Assembly (NCBI GenBank): GCA_017433245.1 | Contig: JAFRHO010000014.1 | Location: 1 to 64,000, forward strand | Reading direction: 5' to 3' | Length of the DNA stretch: 64,000 nt | DNA from: Candidatus Saccharimonadota bacterium | Lineage (GTDB): Bacteria; Patescibacteriota; Saccharimonadia; Saccharimonadales; Saccharimonadaceae | In this document: positions 25,633 through 38,310 of the stretch, piece after piece | Position numbering within the stretch: position 1 is the first letter of the stretch | How the letters are laid out: each line of letters begins with the position of its first letter | Position numbers and translations under genes: made by a program | The notes under the pieces: model-generated | The model's database searches: none | What the model was told of the DNA's origin: nothing | What the model saw: only the letters and a program-made list of their open reading frames with translations

Positions 25633-28515
25633 ATGAGAGTGTGGAGGAAAAATGTTATTTTGAATGGACTTTTTCTGTTCGGTATCATTTTTGGGTTGAG
25701 CCTCATTGGGCAGTCAGCTTTTGCTGAATCGGACCCCTCTATTTCGATTTCCGTCGATACCGTCAATATGACTTTACAGCCTGGTGAATTTGGGACCGCC
25801 AATCAAACCATCACGGCATCCACCACTAGCTCCTCAGGCTACACGATTAAACTAGCAAACAACAACAATTCAACCGATCTTATTAATACGACAGACAACA
25901 CAAAGGTAATACCGACTTTCACAATGCCAAGTGGGTCAACAAGTATTCCAGTTAGTCAACTCGGTAATGGTTATGGATTTAGTACAGACAATGGCGCAAA
26001 TTATTCAGCCATCCCAGATCCGAACACTGCTGTAAAACTGTTCAAAACTTCGTCCAGTGGCGCCAACCAACACACACTCACTTTTGGCGTCAAAGTACCA
26101 ACCAATATCACAGCCGGTACTTATACCAATTCGTTTGATATTATCATTGTGGCGAACTTCGAACCCTGCCTCGCCGAAAAAATTTGCTACTATGGTAATA
26201 ACGACGACGGTACCGGAACAATGTCTGACCAACCCGCCAGTTCGAATACCGACACTACCCTCATGGCATCTAACTATTCTCGCGCTGGCTATGGCTTTGC
26301 TGGTTGGAATACTAGCGCCGACGGGACCGGCACTAATTATGGACCTGCTCAAACTATCACAACCGGAGATTTATCGCAAGAAGGGCTGTCACTTTATGCT
26401 AATTGGGTACAATCAGCCGGTAACTTACAAGATTGGCAAGGCTGCGACAGTATGAGTATTGGTGATATCACAGCACTTACGGATACTCGCGATGGTAGTA
26501 CCTATGCCATTACTAAATATGCTGACAACAAATGTTGGATGATGGAAAATCTACGCCTAGATCTATCGGACCAAGACCTCCAGATCACCAGCAGTAATAC
26601 CAATAAACCAACAGCGTCATTTATAACCGCAATCAATAATCACCCAGCATCTAGCAATTCCTTCTGCGAAAACACCAACTCAGCCTGCATCGACCAAGTA
26701 AAATTTAATACCAACAATATCAATCGAGGGTTGACGGCCGCACATGACACCGCCGACACTACAAGCTCGTGGTATTCCTATGGAGTATACTATAACTGGT
26801 TTGCCGCCACAGCAGGCAATGGCACATATGCACTTACAAATGCAGGCATAATCGTCGAAGGTGACCTCTGCCCAGCCGGCTGGCACTTACCTACCGGATA
26901 TGGCATCGACGGTGAATTAGCCGTCCTTGATAAGGCCTACAATGGTTCAGGCAACAACCAAGAATCAGGAAATACCGGGCTTAACGGTTCAAAGCGTTGG
27001 CGCAACTTCCCATTAAACTATATCTATAGTGGCGAATGGCGCGCTAATAGTAGTCTTAACCGAGGTGTTTCGGGTGGATATTTTTCTGCCAGCAATTACA
27101 CCGCAATACGTTCCTACAATCTCTGGCTTCGTCCAACTGCAATCAATATGAATTCAAATTCCAACCCAAAATACCGTGGTCAAGCCATCCGCTGCATTGC
27201 CACTAATAATAGTTCAATCATCGGCAACATCCACTATGACTCCAATGGTGGTACTGGCACTATGACAGATCGAACAGGCATAGATTTTACCACCGCCACA
27301 GCTGACAGTAATACATTTACAAAACAAAACGCTACCTTCCTTTATTGGAATACTAAAGCTGATGGTACCGGCACTATCGTCCTAGAAGGCGGGTCAGTAA
27401 GTAACGCCGCAAGTACCATGGGTCTAGTAAGTGGCGACACGTTAACCCTATACGCCATTTGGCAACCCATCTTCTCAGTTACCTATAATGGCAACGGAGC
27501 CGACGCGGGCACCATGCCAACTTCCCAAATATCTATCAATGCATCTCTAACTCTCTTAGCAAGTAACTATTCCCGTGCCGGCTATGGTTTTGTTGGTTGG
27601 AGCCATGATGATGATGCTGCCACCAAGCTAATTAACGGCCAAACCATCGAAATCTTTGGACCAAACCAAGTTGTTTCAACCGGCAGTAGCTTCACGAGTC
27701 ATGCAAATAGTAACAACCTCATTACTCTATACGCCGTTTGGCTCCCAGCCGACATCAATGACACACTTCAAACCTTCGATAACGTCAAATGTAACGCCAT
27801 GTCCACTGGAGACATTCTAGCCCTCACCGACAATCGCGATAACAACACATACGCAGTCGCCAAACTCGCAGACGGTAATTGCTGGATGATCGAGAACCTC
27901 CGCCTCGATCCATCAACCACAACCTTCTCGAGTAGTAACACCAATAACCCAACCACCGCCTTCATTTCCGCCGCCCCATCATCTAGCACATCCAATACCA
28001 TGTGCGGTGGCAATACTGGTAATAATAGCACCTGTATCGACCAAGTCGCCTTTAACAGCAATAATCTCAACCGCAGTCTTTCTGCCTCGGCAACAGCAAG
28101 TTCGCCTGCCCAATGGTACAGTTATGGCATGATGTACAACTGGTACACTGCTTCAGCCGGCAATGGCACCTACGCCATGTCGAGCGGCCATGTGGCAGGT
28201 GATATCTGCCCTGCAGGCTGGCGTTTACCAACCGCTGGTACGGGAGGCGAGTTAGCCGTGCTTAATAGCAGCGTCAACGGTGGAGCTACTAACAACGACA
28301 GCGGCCTAGTATCCTTCCCAAATAACTTCATCTATTCTGGCGACTTTAACCAAACTCAATCCGGCGGTCGCGGTAACTACGGACGTCTCTGGAGTGCAAC
28401 CGCATCGAACAATAGCAACGCCTTCCGCCTCGGCTATCGCAATAACGAAGTCACGCCAGTCAAAGCCTACAACAAATGGGATGCCTTCGCACTAAGATGC
28501 ATTGTAAAGCCATAA
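25633..28515 (+). CDS. FISUMP-domain surface protein with InlB-type repeats
   Basis: The 960-residue secreted protein has a signal peptide ending near AFAESD (~32). The N-terminal module (~33-180) resembles that of the divergent giant protein (TLTFGVKVPTNITAGTYTN against TLSFGTRVDMSLPAGTYTN). InlB/Flg_new repeats follow (GYGFAGWNTSADGTG, FLYWNTKADGTG, GYGFVGWSHDDDA). Two FISUMP modules (~275-520 and ~730-960) share ALTDTRDGSTYAI or ALTDNRDNNTYAV, a CWMMENLRLD or CWMIENLRLD motif, CPAGWHLP or CPAGWRLP, and an AIRCI or ALRCI end. FISUMP modules are common in surface proteins of Fibrobacter and Saccharibacteria. There is no C-terminal membrane anchor, so it may be released or held non-covalently. 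Confidence 0.88.
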   Translation: MRVWRKNVILNGLFLFGIIFGLSLIGQSAFAESDPSISISVDTVNMTLQPGEFGTANQTITASTTSSSGYTIKLANNNNSTDLINTTDNTKVIPTFTMPSGSTSIPVSQLGNGYGFSTDNGANYSAIPDPNTAVKLFKTSSSGANQHTLTFGVKVPTNITAGTYTNSFDIIIVANFEPCLAEKICYYGNNDDGTGTMSDQPASSNTDTTLMASNYSRAGYGFAGWNTSADGTGTNYGPAQTITTGDLSQEGLSLYANWVQSAGNLQDWQGCDSMSIGDITALTDTRDGSTYAITKYADNKCWMMENLRLDLSDQDLQITSSNTNKPTASFITAINNHPASSNSFCENTNSACIDQVKFNTNNINRGLTAAHDTADTTSSWYSYGVYYNWFAATAGNGTYALTNAGIIVEGDLCPAGWHLPTGYGIDGELAVLDKAYNGSGNNQESGNTGLNGSKRWRNFPLNYIYSGEWRANSSLNRGVSGGYFSASNYTAIRSYNLWLRPTAINMNSNSNPKYRGQAIRCIATNNSSIIGNIHYDSNGGTGTMTDRTGIDFTTATADSNTFTKQNATFLYWNTKADGTGTIVLEGGSVSNAASTMGLVSGDTLTLYAIWQPIFSVTYNGNGADAGTMPTSQISINASLTLLASNYSRAGYGFVGWSHDDDAATKLINGQTIEIFGPNQVVSTGSSFTSHANSNNLITLYAVWLPADINDTLQTFDNVKCNAMSTGDILALTDNRDNNTYAVAKLADGNCWMIENLRLDPSTTTFSSSNTNNPTTAFISAAPSSSTSNTMCGGNTGNNSTCIDQVAFNSNNLNRSLSASATASSPAQWYSYGMMYNWYTASAGNGTYAMSSGHVAGDICPAGWRLPTAGTGGELAVLNSSVNGGATNNDSGLVSFPNNFIYSGDFNQTQSGGRGNYGRLWSATASNNSNAFRLGYRNNEVTPVKAYNKWDAFALRCIVKP

Positions 28516-31089: not shown

Positions 31090-31345
31090 GACAAAAACAT
31101 AGTTTTCTAGAAAACCAGTTTTTGGCAAGCAGAGAAAGGATAATTCCACCCTAGGGGCTGTAGCACTTGGAAAGGAACCGTAACTTCGCACCTTTGCGAC
31201 ATCTAGGTACGCCGATGATCAACTGCCTAGCTACCAGTCACGCAACGCAATGGCCTGCCATTATGTTTATTACTGCTACTGGTACCTGGACTCGCATCGA
31301 GCGAAGTGAGATCCGAGTCCTCGCTTTTTGAGTTTTTTTCAAAGA
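31090..31345 (+). ncRNA. Candidate structured RNA ending in an intrinsic terminator
   Basis: The ~255-nt region carries no ORF on the plus strand but many hairpins: GTTTTC-ta-GAAAAC (31102-31115), CGCA-cctt-TGCG, CTAGG/CCTAG, TACCAGT/ACTGGTA enclosing AATGG-cctg-CCATT. Finally GGACTCG and CGAGTCC form a strong stem, followed by TCGCTTTTTGAG and a run of seven T. The T-tracts favour transcription on the plus strand. It matches no family I can recall (not tmRNA, RNase P, SRP or 6S). It could instead be degenerate tRNA-tail debris, since the minus strand resembles a tRNA 3' end near 31270. Confidence 0.4.
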
Positions 31346-36081: not shown

Positions 36082-36157
36082 GGGGTGTTAGCTCATTTGG
36101 TAGAGCGCTTCCATGGCATGGAAGAGGTGAGGAGTTCGAGCCTCCTACACTCCACCA
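36082..36157 (+). tRNA. tRNA-Ala (anticodon GGC)
   Basis: GGGGTGT pairs with ACACTCC (one G-T pair), discriminator A, CCA encoded. The anticodon stem CTTCC/GGAAG closes loop ATGGCAT with anticodon GGC. Confidence 0.94.
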
Positions 36158-36164
36158 TAGAAAT
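36141..36164 (+). repeat. Direct repeat, copy A (3' end of tRNA-Ala)
   Basis: CCTCCTACACTCCACCATAG plus AAAT. The copy at 36327-36350 matches 20 of 24 positions, and all four differences are transitions. The two copies bracket the 162-bp structured segment. Confidence 0.6.
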
Positions 36165-36193
36165 AACCCGACCGTTTGGTCGGGTTATTTCTA
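36162..36193 (+). terminator. Intrinsic terminator of tRNA-Ala(GGC)
   Basis: AATAACCCGACC-gttt-GGTCGGGTTATT forms a 12-bp stem with a short T-rich tail (TTCTATTG). It begins 5 nt after the tRNA CCA. Confidence 0.85.
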
Positions 36194-36206
36194 TTGTTGG
36201 GATATA

Positions 36207-36333
36207 TGGAGGGACGAACTCCGCAGGAGTTCGGACGCGGTAGGAGTCAAGCAGAAATCTAAAGCTTGCTTTAGATTTCTCGAGACGACGCCCCGCGTAG
36301 TGGTTTTGCGCTAGCAAAACCACTGGCCTCCCA
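36207..36333. other. Cloverleaf-like inverted-repeat structure beside tRNA-Ala
   Basis: TGGAGGG (36207-36213) can pair with CCTCCCA (36327-36333) and encloses three arms: GAACTCC-gca-GGAGTTC; ACGCGG...CCGCGT enclosing the 13-bp hairpin AGAAATCTAAAGC/GCTTTAGATTTCT; and GTGGTTTTGC-gcta-GCAAAACCAC. It is followed by a degenerate copy of the tRNA-Ala 3' end. No ORF is convincing here. It may be a small non-autonomous element, a processed RNA, or the terminator region of the minus-strand surface gene. Confidence 0.55.
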
Positions 36334-36350
36334 CACTCTACTATAAAAAT
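36327..36350 (+). repeat. Direct repeat, copy B (degenerate tRNA-Ala 3' end)
   Basis: CCTCCCACACTCTACTATAA plus AAAT, 20/24 identical to 36141-36164. The pattern of a tRNA 3' end repeated downstream resembles attachment-site scars left by elements that integrate into tRNA genes. Confidence 0.55.
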
Positions 36351-36381: not shown

Positions 36382-38310
36382 CTAAGACCCTGACAGAGCC
36401 ATGCAGCGGATAGTCCTCCCGCCGTGCTTGTGGGGGGTACCCGACCCTGGGGTGACGTTCGTACCGCGGAAGGACAGGTCGTAAGCGTAGTTGGCCATGT
36501 TGGCCGTAGACGACCAATAGTAGCCGCCGAAGCCACGATTGCTAAGCGAGGCGCCCTCCACGAGGCCGGAATGGACAAAGTTATTAGGCCAGGTACGAAT
36601 AAGAGCATCTACTGGACCCGCTTCAGCTGAACCATCGTAAATTGGCTTTGTACTACTCGTATAATTGGCCGGATTGATGCCACCATTTAAGGCATCTACT
36701 ACAAGGTTCCAGAAGTCATTATCATCATTAGATTCTATTCTAGCCTTATTGCCACCTTTTGGTAGTCTCCAATTGGTTGGGCATAAATCGCCTGCGGTAC
36801 TATTGTTATTAGTGCTGAGTCCATAAGTACCACGTCCTGCGGTAGCCGAGTACCAGTTATAGTAATTGCCATATGTATAGAGATTAGCACTAGTAGACAT
36901 CGTAGCATCAGAAGCGTAAGATACACGATTTACAGTATTATCAGTACGAAGTCTAGATTGGTCATAGCAAGCAGCAGATTGAGAGGTGCACCAACCATCC
37001 GGAGAGCTGGTTTCATTATAGACTACTGATGAGGTTGCAGAGAGAGTATTATAGGTCTGCGTATCAGTGTAATTATGCTTCAACGTCACATCGGTACCAT
37101 CATTTAGTGGATTATTAGTATTAAGAGTAGTAAGTTGTGCTGTATTATCTAGCCTTAAGTTTTCTATCATCCAGCACTTGTTATCTGCGAGTTTCGCGAT
37201 GGCGTAGGTCTGATTATCACGTTCGTCTGTGAGAGCAGAGACACTAGCGAGAGTTCTAGTCCCACTCGTTGAGGCAGCCGTGACGGCATTACAAGCGGCT
37301 GTGGTGTCACTAGTATTCTGGAAAGAACCAGCCGATGGTACCCAGACCGCATAGAGTGAAAGACCTGGATTAGAACCTGTATACTGACCGGCTGCAAAAG
37401 AAATGGTTTCATTCGGGCCATAAAAGTTAGCGCTAACATTAGTTGCATAGTCAAAGGCATCACTCCAACCAGCGAAGCCGTAACCAGAACGACTAAAATT
37501 AGAAGCGAAAAGTTTAGCTGTCGTAGCCAAATCACTGATAGTTTGGCACCCCATTGTTCCATCAGCCATAGCAGTGTTTGCATAATAACAAATTTTGCCA
37601 GGAGAAGTGCCTTGCGGTTGTGCTGGCACTTCGTTGTATGGATGCACCAGAGTATACTTCACCTTCCCTTCATAAGTATCCGCCGCCTGACTAGCCGAAA
37701 CGTATGCCTGATAAGTAGTTTCCAACTTACCACCTAGCACTGTATCTGTAACCGAAGAACCAGAATTAGCATGATACTGTGCTACTTTAGTATAAGTATC
37801 TGGAACTAAATGCCAAGAATCAAAACTGTTTTGGATAGACATATTGGCAGGAATATATGATATGGTTCCATCGGTTATCTTATCTATTTTCATTGCCCAT
37901 GAGGAAGTGGTATCCCCACTGGTATATAATCCAGTACTAATTGTATTGTTGTTGTCTGTAGCGCCTACTAGTTTAGTATGATTAGTATCAGTATAAGAAT
38001 CTCCTGTAAAACCAACAGCATAAATCGAGAATCCATTATAATCATTACAAAATGCAGTAAGTGTAGTTTTGCCGATACCATTCACATAATCACTGCCGCT
38101 TTGACCAGAATACTCAGCATTATGAAGTGTCGCTACGTGCGAGTCCATCCCTACACCAGCCAAAGTACAAGACTCTTCTACAGTAACATTGACCTGATCG
38201 ATAACGGTGTCGTTATCAGCCAATACTGAACTAGCCACCAACATTACACCACAAAAACAAGATATTATTAACAAGAAGATAGCCACAAGATTATAATTAC
38301 CTCTCTCCAT
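36382..38310 (-). CDS. FISUMP-domain surface protein
   Basis: The 642-residue secreted protein has a signal peptide (~8-32) and an N-terminal module (~34-230) with CTLAGVG, NGIGKTTLTAFCNDYNGFS and TNHTKLVGATDNNN that matches the truncated gene at 1-329. A Flg_new/InlB-like repeat follows (SRSGYGFAGWSDAF, LSLYAVWVPSAG). A single FISUMP domain (~345-642) contains ALTDERDNQTYAIAKLADNK, CWMIENLRLD, CPTNWRLPKGGNKA, SNRGFGGYYWSST and a final RCMALSGS. It has no C-terminal anchor. A TATGAT -10 box and a purine-rich GAGAGGG leader precede the ATG. Confidence 0.88.
   Translation of the reverse strand: MERGNYNLVAIFLLIISCFCGVMLVASSVLADNDTVIDQVNVTVEESCTLAGVGMDSHVATLHNAEYSGQSGSDYVNGIGKTTLTAFCNDYNGFSIYAVGFTGDSYTDTNHTKLVGATDNNNTISTGLYTSGDTTSSWAMKIDKITDGTISYIPANMSIQNSFDSWHLVPDTYTKVAQYHANSGSSVTDTVLGGKLETTYQAYVSASQAADTYEGKVKYTLVHPYNEVPAQPQGTSPGKICYYANTAMADGTMGCQTISDLATTAKLFASNFSRSGYGFAGWSDAFDYATNVSANFYGPNETISFAAGQYTGSNPGLSLYAVWVPSAGSFQNTSDTTAACNAVTAASTSGTRTLASVSALTDERDNQTYAIAKLADNKCWMIENLRLDNTAQLTTLNTNNPLNDGTDVTLKHNYTDTQTYNTLSATSSVVYNETSSPDGWCTSQSAACYDQSRLRTDNTVNRVSYASDATMSTSANLYTYGNYYNWYSATAGRGTYGLSTNNNSTAGDLCPTNWRLPKGGNKARIESNDDNDFWNLVVDALNGGINPANYTSSTKPIYDGSAEAGPVDALIRTWPNNFVHSGLVEGASLSNRGFGGYYWSSTANMANYAYDLSFRGTNVTPGSGTPHKHGGRTIRCMALSGS

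Follow-up and report, generated by a model that had tools for sequence, protein, structure and literature searches.

A probable non-autonomous miniature insertion element that duplicates tRNA 3' tails in ruminant gut Saccharibacteria

Why does the end of a tRNA-Ala(GGC) gene appear a second time a short distance downstream in a Candidatus Saccharimonadota bacterium, and what lies between the two copies? The window, i.e., the whole 64,000-nt stretch of DNA that we analyzed, belongs to contig 8 of a 0.69-Mb genome (G000) that is 78% complete. Among named genomes, its closest relatives by RpoA belong to Candidatus Saccharibacteria, most of which come from the guts of sheep, goats, yaks, buffalo, and cattle. 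tRNA 3' ends are classic docking sites of mobile DNA, and to our knowledge the mobile tenants of these sites are large and restricted to one or few tRNAs. The first-pass annotation of the window had pointed to a tRNA-Ala tail that recurs 186 bp downstream with four transitions only, and this observation held: the 25-mer at positions 36140 to 36164 is repeated, at a spacing of 186, at 36326 to 36350 (21/25 identical, all four differences being transitions), whereas 300 shuffles of the 25-mer scored no higher than 17 within the next 2 kb. The segment between the copies folds into a four-way junction (-68 kcal/mol, z = -7.0) with a closing stem and three hairpins of 8 bp (hp2), 13 bp (hp3), and 11 bp (hp4), much as had been proposed, except that the closing stem is 5 bp long (GGAGG/CCTCC) in the minimum-energy fold rather than 7 bp. 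Folded on either strand, the segment gave z values of -7.0 and -6.7.

The elements of the locus all lie on the + strand, and their order is that of the unit in general: tRNA-CCA, hp1, a T-arm-complementary strand, hp2, a P3 stem containing hp3, hp4, and a tail copy, with a body of ~170 nt (~168 nt here, 36158 to 36325). The last 18 nt of the tRNA-Ala gene (36082 to 36157) constitute the proximal copy of the duplicated tail (nt 59 to 76; GCCTCCTACACTCCACCA, 36140 to 36157). Hp1, which is typically a long A/T-rich terminator-like hairpin beginning at or inside the CCA, here has 20-nt arms and starts within the CCA (36154 to 36197); it travels together with the body in near-identical copies at other loci. 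The following degenerate inverted copy of the tRNA 3' end (36194 to 36225) is complementary to the T arm and the acceptor 3' strand, and it contains the 5' strand of the closing stem (36208 to 36212). Neither this inverted copy nor the terminator-like hairpin directly after the CCA had been noticed at first pass. Hp2 (CGAACTCC/GGAGTTCG, 36215 to 36233) bears the T-loop sequence, which it also repeats across the family. In the core (36235 to 36298), the P3 stem (36235 to 36240 paired with 36293 to 36298) surrounds the conserved GTAGGAG...CGACGCCC and hp3, a perfect 13-bp hairpin of variable sequence (36253 to 36280); in the general anatomy, P3 encloses GTAGGAGNNGAG, hp3, and NGANNCGACGCCC. A perfect 11-bp hairpin, hp4 (36299 to 36324), precedes the distal copy of nt 59 to 76 (GCCTCCCACACTCTACTA, 36326 to 36343, three transitions), within which lies the 3' strand of the closing stem (36327 to 36331).

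Judged by the three transitions in its 18-nt tail and by a closing stem that has been reduced to 5 bp, the window copy is an old, degenerate one, in which hp2, hp3, hp4, and P3 are intact. The first-pass annotation had named two findings that would speak against its reading, namely a tail similarity without significance and a segment belonging to a coding or terminator region. The similarity proved significant; the stretch between the copies is neither coding nor merely a terminator: an intrinsic terminator, defined as one G+C hairpin plus a T run, roughly describes hp1 alone and does not describe the conserved body beyond it. Two Fib_succ_major surface protein genes are also present in the window (25633 to 28515 and 36382 to 38310, of which the latter scores under the Pfam cut-off); one ends beside tRNA-Thr, and the other ends 38 nt from the tRNA-Ala element.

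How far does this unit extend beyond the window? BLAST with the window segment matched cognate sequences in the same genus, and a better copy used as the query matched 82 of the 174 genus genomes. An alignment of 24 copies yielded a consensus structure with double (compensatory) changes at 14 of 23 pairs, from which we built a covariance model. At an E value of ≤0.001, this model detected the element in 139/174 genomes of this ruminant gut Saccharibacteria genus, comparisons here being made at the species level, on metagenome-assembled genomes and with capped searches; the window copy was matched at 36208 to 36337 with an E value of 1.1e-30. A deeper search of four genomes returned 4, 16, 18, and 32 matches, weak ones counted. 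In an order-wide sample of 247 genomes from 132 genera, the element was found in 31 genomes of 5 genera, all of which belong to the window's family. Across copies, the sequences of P3, hp2, hp3, and hp4 vary while their complementarity is kept; the conserved letters are those of the internal loop around hp3, which contains GA motifs. Of 106 tRNA-linked copies, 93 fold into a closing stem from which exactly three branches extend. At six loci, in several genomes, two nested hairpins of larger size (AATTGAAAGGCGCCATCTYGGCGTTTTTTC...GAAGAAAACACCAATCTGGCGCCTTTCAA) stand in place of hp1, directly behind a tRNA or a tRNA tail. The window genome holds a second copy (contig C12, 28052 to 28174) behind tRNA-Arg(TCT), which lacks hp1 and the inverted strand and has its core set straight into the T-loop of a further T arm.

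A search of Rfam 15 at the gathering score matched only tRNAs, a loose threshold gave nothing credible for the element either, and a phage collection contained no DNA similar to it. Three pattern hits in viral contigs were GC-rich sequence without a tRNA and were judged to be chance, so carriage by phages was rejected. Since the literature that we searched, whose coverage is incomplete, held no description of this family, it is apparently new to science.

The tRNA-flank statistics cover fetched loci. To measure place and orientation, 60 copies were fetched by model score alone, blind to tRNAs. A tRNA lies directly upstream on the same strand in 58 of these 60, representing 21 anticodon types; none has a tRNA upstream on the opposite strand or downstream on either strand. 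Of the 93 hits in an earlier set, which took in weak ones, 53 were tRNA linked, and the two sets combined cover 28 anticodon types in 55 genomes. Weak core-only matches were also found away from tRNAs. At four loci of one genome (G171), the core hairpin starts exactly at the stop codon of genes ending in ..RCLSTVLGM*, which encode Fib_succ_major-like surface proteins, and a second GGCTATGTAGGAG follows the core hairpin. At seven loci of another (G195), core-type hairpins, some of them in small clusters, lie antisense next to apparently truncated Fib_succ_major gene fragments, an arrangement with the look of silent cassettes.

The far tail proved to be specific to the tRNA that precedes it. Tails matched their cognate tRNA at a mean of 17.4 of 24 positions, versus 11.9 for other tRNAs, and the tail copy (nt 58/59 to 76 with the CCA, often followed by a second terminator) starts at nt 58 or 59 in 55/86 copies and within nt 55 to 61 in 83/86, whichever tRNA is involved. 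At sites that differ between same-anticodon tRNAs of different genomes, the copy follows its own host tRNA over the alternative by 339:38; 127 comparisons were won and 13 were lost. The clearest case is a pair of copies behind tRNA-Val(TAC), L083 (G006) and L319 (G018), in which hp1 is identical and the core 99% identical, whereas the outer flanks (0.60 and 0.68 identical versus ~0.55 for random sequence) are at or near the random level. Their tail copies, ..CCTCATCACCCACCA and ..CCTCACAACCCACCA, each match their own tRNA-Val allele, and both the proximal and the far tail follow the host allele. Given that near-identical bodies carry host-specific tails, a target-site duplication fits this pair better than a tail carried by the element. 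L376, in which the tRNA and the tail copy differ, is a counterexample, and the case for duplication leans on this one very clean pair and on the allele statistic. In fresh-looking copies, the direct repeat extends 16 to 72 nt beyond the CCA, often up to the end of the terminator (56 nt of perfect repeat in the tRNA-Ile copy L204; extensions also at six further loci), which implies that the duplication is not always 18 to 19 nt long.

The T-arm-complementary strand is matched to the target as well. Its duplex with the tail copy has a mean energy of -18.0 kcal/mol for cognate combinations versus -12.2 kcal/mol for noncognate ones. In 83 pairs of copies whose cores are ≥83% identical and whose tRNAs carry different amino acids, 130 comparisons favored the fit of the strand to its own tRNA, and 3 favored its fit to the tRNA of the partner. 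These results indicate that the core is common to different tRNAs and that the complementary strand is exchanged or remade.

Cores nevertheless do not mix freely among tRNAs. Grouped by similarity, they tend to fall together with others of the same anticodon (71 label changes, compared with 88.7 in shuffled data, for which the minimum was 84), and the nearest neighbor has the same anticodon in 46 of 111 cases (5.7 shuffled) and comes from the same genome in 7 of 111. This clustering argues that jumps between different tRNAs are rarer and that inheritance or same-tRNA transfer is common and accounts for part of the pattern. Among 30 genomes with an identical tRNA-Tyr, the site behind that gene holds type A copies, type B units, decayed pieces, or nothing, many sites being empty. 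No filled and empty site was found in a pair of near-identical genomes, presence and absence differing between species, and in an empty-site alignment for L204, related genomes were not syntenic at that place. Modules also recombine: L369 and L376 have the core and the outer flank in common, while hp1 and the complementary strand are not shared, and this arrangement points to module exchange rather than clean insertion.

The type B unit is a stretch of ~62 to 76 bp behind tRNAs that consists of a spacer or terminator, a short hairpin of T-loop sequence (GGACTCG...CGAGTCC), and a tRNA tail to the CCA. In G113, a 64-bp type B unit forms at least 2.9 perfect tandem copies in an array that runs off the contig end (C11); other type B loci were seen in G091, G099, G018, and G096. 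The window has a degenerate type B hairpin on the - strand behind its tRNA-Tyr (GGACTCGGATCTC...GCGAGTCC, 31288 to 31320), and the unit is intact at the same tRNA-Tyr place in other genomes. The suggestion that the element might recur at 31.3 kb thus survives only as a degenerate relative of a shorter unit type, whose 17/25 tail match lies at the top end of what shuffling yields. The second example that had been claimed, tRNA-Ala(CGC) at 45.0 kb, has to be given up: its best downstream tail match, 14/25, equals the shuffled level.

Do these structures act as DNA or as RNA? Together, the arms of hp2, hp3, and hp4 contain 1,992 Watson-Crick pairs, 11 G.T pairs, and 6 A.C pairs, whereas the tRNA stems of the same loci contain 952, 57, and 3, respectively; only Watson-Crick pairs counted toward the score in the hairpin search. 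By the same measure, hp1 has 22 G.T and 8 A.C pairs of 1,414, which argues that method bias is not the whole cause of the difference. Given the near absence of wobble pairs, hp2 to hp4 lack the wobble bias of folded RNA and resemble DNA palindromes that are kept perfect. Such pure Watson-Crick arms favor maintenance at the DNA level, perhaps by a process such as template-switch correction. They also caution against taking compensatory changes in a palindrome as a sure sign of RNA function, as the arms vary freely with nearly no wobble.

With moderate confidence, we favor the explanation that this family is a non-autonomous miniature insertion element of tRNA 3' ends, which duplicates the tRNA tail and leaves the tRNA intact, and that the window copy is a degenerate example. 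The body, comprising hp1, the T-arm-complementary strand, hp2, the core with hp3, and hp4, would enter directly 3' of the tRNA CCA, and the last 18 to 19 nt of the tRNA (nt 58/59 to 76) would be duplicated at its far end, so that the tRNA gene would stay whole and keep a terminator. The T-arm-complementary strand would pair with the far copy and close the four-way junction; a trans-acting enzyme may recognize the folded DNA, and the complementary strand may help to choose or hold the target. We infer that the element moves; what the genomes directly display is its fixed place and orientation, a tail copy of the host allele, a target-matched strand, a body that recurs without sharing of flanks, and patchy presence at tRNA-Tyr. 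The idea of a family of tiny non-autonomous tRNA-targeting elements, already raised at first pass, is supported by the 139 model-positive genomes, the 58 tRNA-linked copies, and the cognate tails, as well as by bodies that are near-identical although their flanks are unrelated, by similar cores that follow different tRNAs, and by the lack of any gene seen in the element. A bolder version, in which the complementary strand is an exchangeable target-recognition segment by which one core has reached 28 tRNA types, while an enzyme of these ultrasmall bacteria duplicates the tail, from T-loop nt 58 up to the CCA, at every insertion, strikes us as unlikely.

Tyrosine-recombinase-type integration would instead place a crossover in the T-loop, with an element-borne tRNA 3' fragment and terminator, the far copy being the displaced host tail and tandem units arising by accretion. 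The identity block does begin in the T-loop, orientation is strict, cores cluster by anticodon, tandem units exist (the 64-bp array and two further loci, L206 and L313), and phage Ms6 provides a precedent (PMC1762012). However, both tails follow the host allele despite near-identical bodies, the block starts at nt 58/59 rather than at the 5' edge of the T-loop, and one enzyme would need to use 28 anticodon types. Moreover, PF00589 proteins occur in 164/174 genomes, nearly all genomes having one that is Xer-like, and in many copy-rich genomes, among them G157, G130, G167, G171, and G181, this Xer-like protein is the only one; we consider the integration reading rather improbable. An Xer-like tyrosine recombinase gene beside a copy-bearing tRNA in G195 and near a core-only copy in G171 was set aside, as it has the appearance of a normal chromosomal gene. 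The other candidate mobilizers fared no better, with Y1 (HUH)/REP-type transposases found in only 8 and Cas1 in only 11 of the 174 genomes, neither tracking the element. Reverse transcriptase matches were obtained in 98 of the 174 but not in copy-rich G195, G171, G157, G130, or G167. No helper that tracks the element was thus found among PF00589, Y1 transposase, reverse transcriptase, and Cas1 in these genomes. The same lack of a match in copy-rich genomes disposed of a diversity-generating retroelement as the driver, a candidate prompted by the core hairpins at Fib_succ_major-like stop codons in G171. It also weighs on a tRNA-primed retroelement, in which reverse transcription primed from the 3' end would leave an 18-nt tail ending at a putative m1A58 stop, with the complementary strand as the primer-binding site. 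That scheme would suit the boundary at nt 58/59 and the 18-nt length, the complementary strands that start opposite the CCA in some copies, the self-complementary run across hp1, and the repeat blocks of fresh copies that stop at transcript ends. But fresh repeats beyond the CCA misfit a mature tRNA primer, and no reverse transcriptase gene lies in or beside the elements examined, so we hold it to be highly improbable.

A resident, vertically inherited tRNA trailer structure, with an RNA or regulatory role in tRNA expression or processing and only rarely copied between tRNAs, would account for the position on the tRNA strand in 58/60 copies, the conserved internal loop with its GA motifs, the compensatory changes at 14/23 pairs, the anticodon clustering, and the look of a CCA-ended minihelix. 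It is hard to reconcile with the missing RNA wobble signature (11 G.T and 6 A.C versus 1,992 Watson-Crick pairs), a terminator-like hp1 ahead of the body, patchy presence, and unrelated flanks around near-identical bodies, and we judge it distinctly improbable. Replication template switching at palindromic tRNA genes, which creates forward-inverted-forward duplications with no dedicated machinery, would explain that order of copies, the near-perfect palindromes, and the short type B units, which are little beyond a T-arm hairpin and a duplicated tail. Since it would offer no source for a shared core, GTAGGAG...CGACGCCC, that keeps one position across 28 anticodon types, it is already disfavored for type A copies, and overall we find it very improbable.

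In this lineage of reduced genomes, one tiny body stands behind 28 anticodon types, with a strand that matches whichever tRNA precedes it. Should this strand aim the insertion, it would represent a new kind of targeting; should it be made afresh at each insertion, it would expose the chemistry of the event. The tRNA-Tyr locus and the fresh copies make the targeting question testable.

Several known systems share individual traits with the element. Casposons (Cas1-solo transposons) enter tRNA genes at their extreme 3' end and generate a 14- to 15-bp target-site duplication (PMC6977970). The likeness lies in tRNA 3'-end insertion with a target-site duplication, but casposons encode their own machinery and have terminal inverted repeats, whereas the element here is ~170 nt long and found at many tRNAs, in genomes that rarely carry Cas1 (11/174), with a duplication of ~18 to 19 nt from nt 58/59 that is longer in fresh copies and not fixed at 14 to 15 bp. 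Phage Ms6, which integrates at the T-loop by a tyrosine recombinase, has an identity block from the T-loop to the tRNA 3' end and leaves the tRNA whole (PMC1762012). Here too, a direct-repeat block reaches from one of the tRNA loops to the 3' end (83/86 start within nt 55 to 61), but there is no integrase gene in or tracking the element, no cargo, and not one but many tRNA targets, and the tail copy follows the host allele. Tyrosine-integrase elements bring the proximal tail and displace that of the host; on this point, both tails follow the host allele in our best pair, and L376 is a counterexample. Integron attC boxes (RYYYAAC/GTTRRRY) were not seen by eye in the alignment consensus, and IntI was looked at only via PF00589. 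The element differs from the target hairpins of diversity-generating retroelements, in that the copy-rich genomes G195, G171, G157, G130, and G167 gave no reverse transcriptase match. The GTAG motif at the hairpin foot is a point of resemblance to REPIN and IS200-like elements, and so is the short, palindromic, non-autonomous, folded-DNA character. REPINs and IS200-like miniature elements, mobilized by RAYTs, are short, palindromic, non-autonomous, and dispersed folded DNA (PMC3116915), but tRNA targeting and target-derived tails are not among their features, Y1 transposases occur in just 8/174 genomes, and instead of an inverted doublet of one short motif between genes we observed one core, with full copies behind tRNAs. 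With classic MITEs and small bacterial repeats, finally, the element shares a non-autonomous, palindromic form of <200 nt; it differs from them in that no terminal inverted repeats bound its body, the long duplication is always of the tRNA tail, and an internal strand matches the target.
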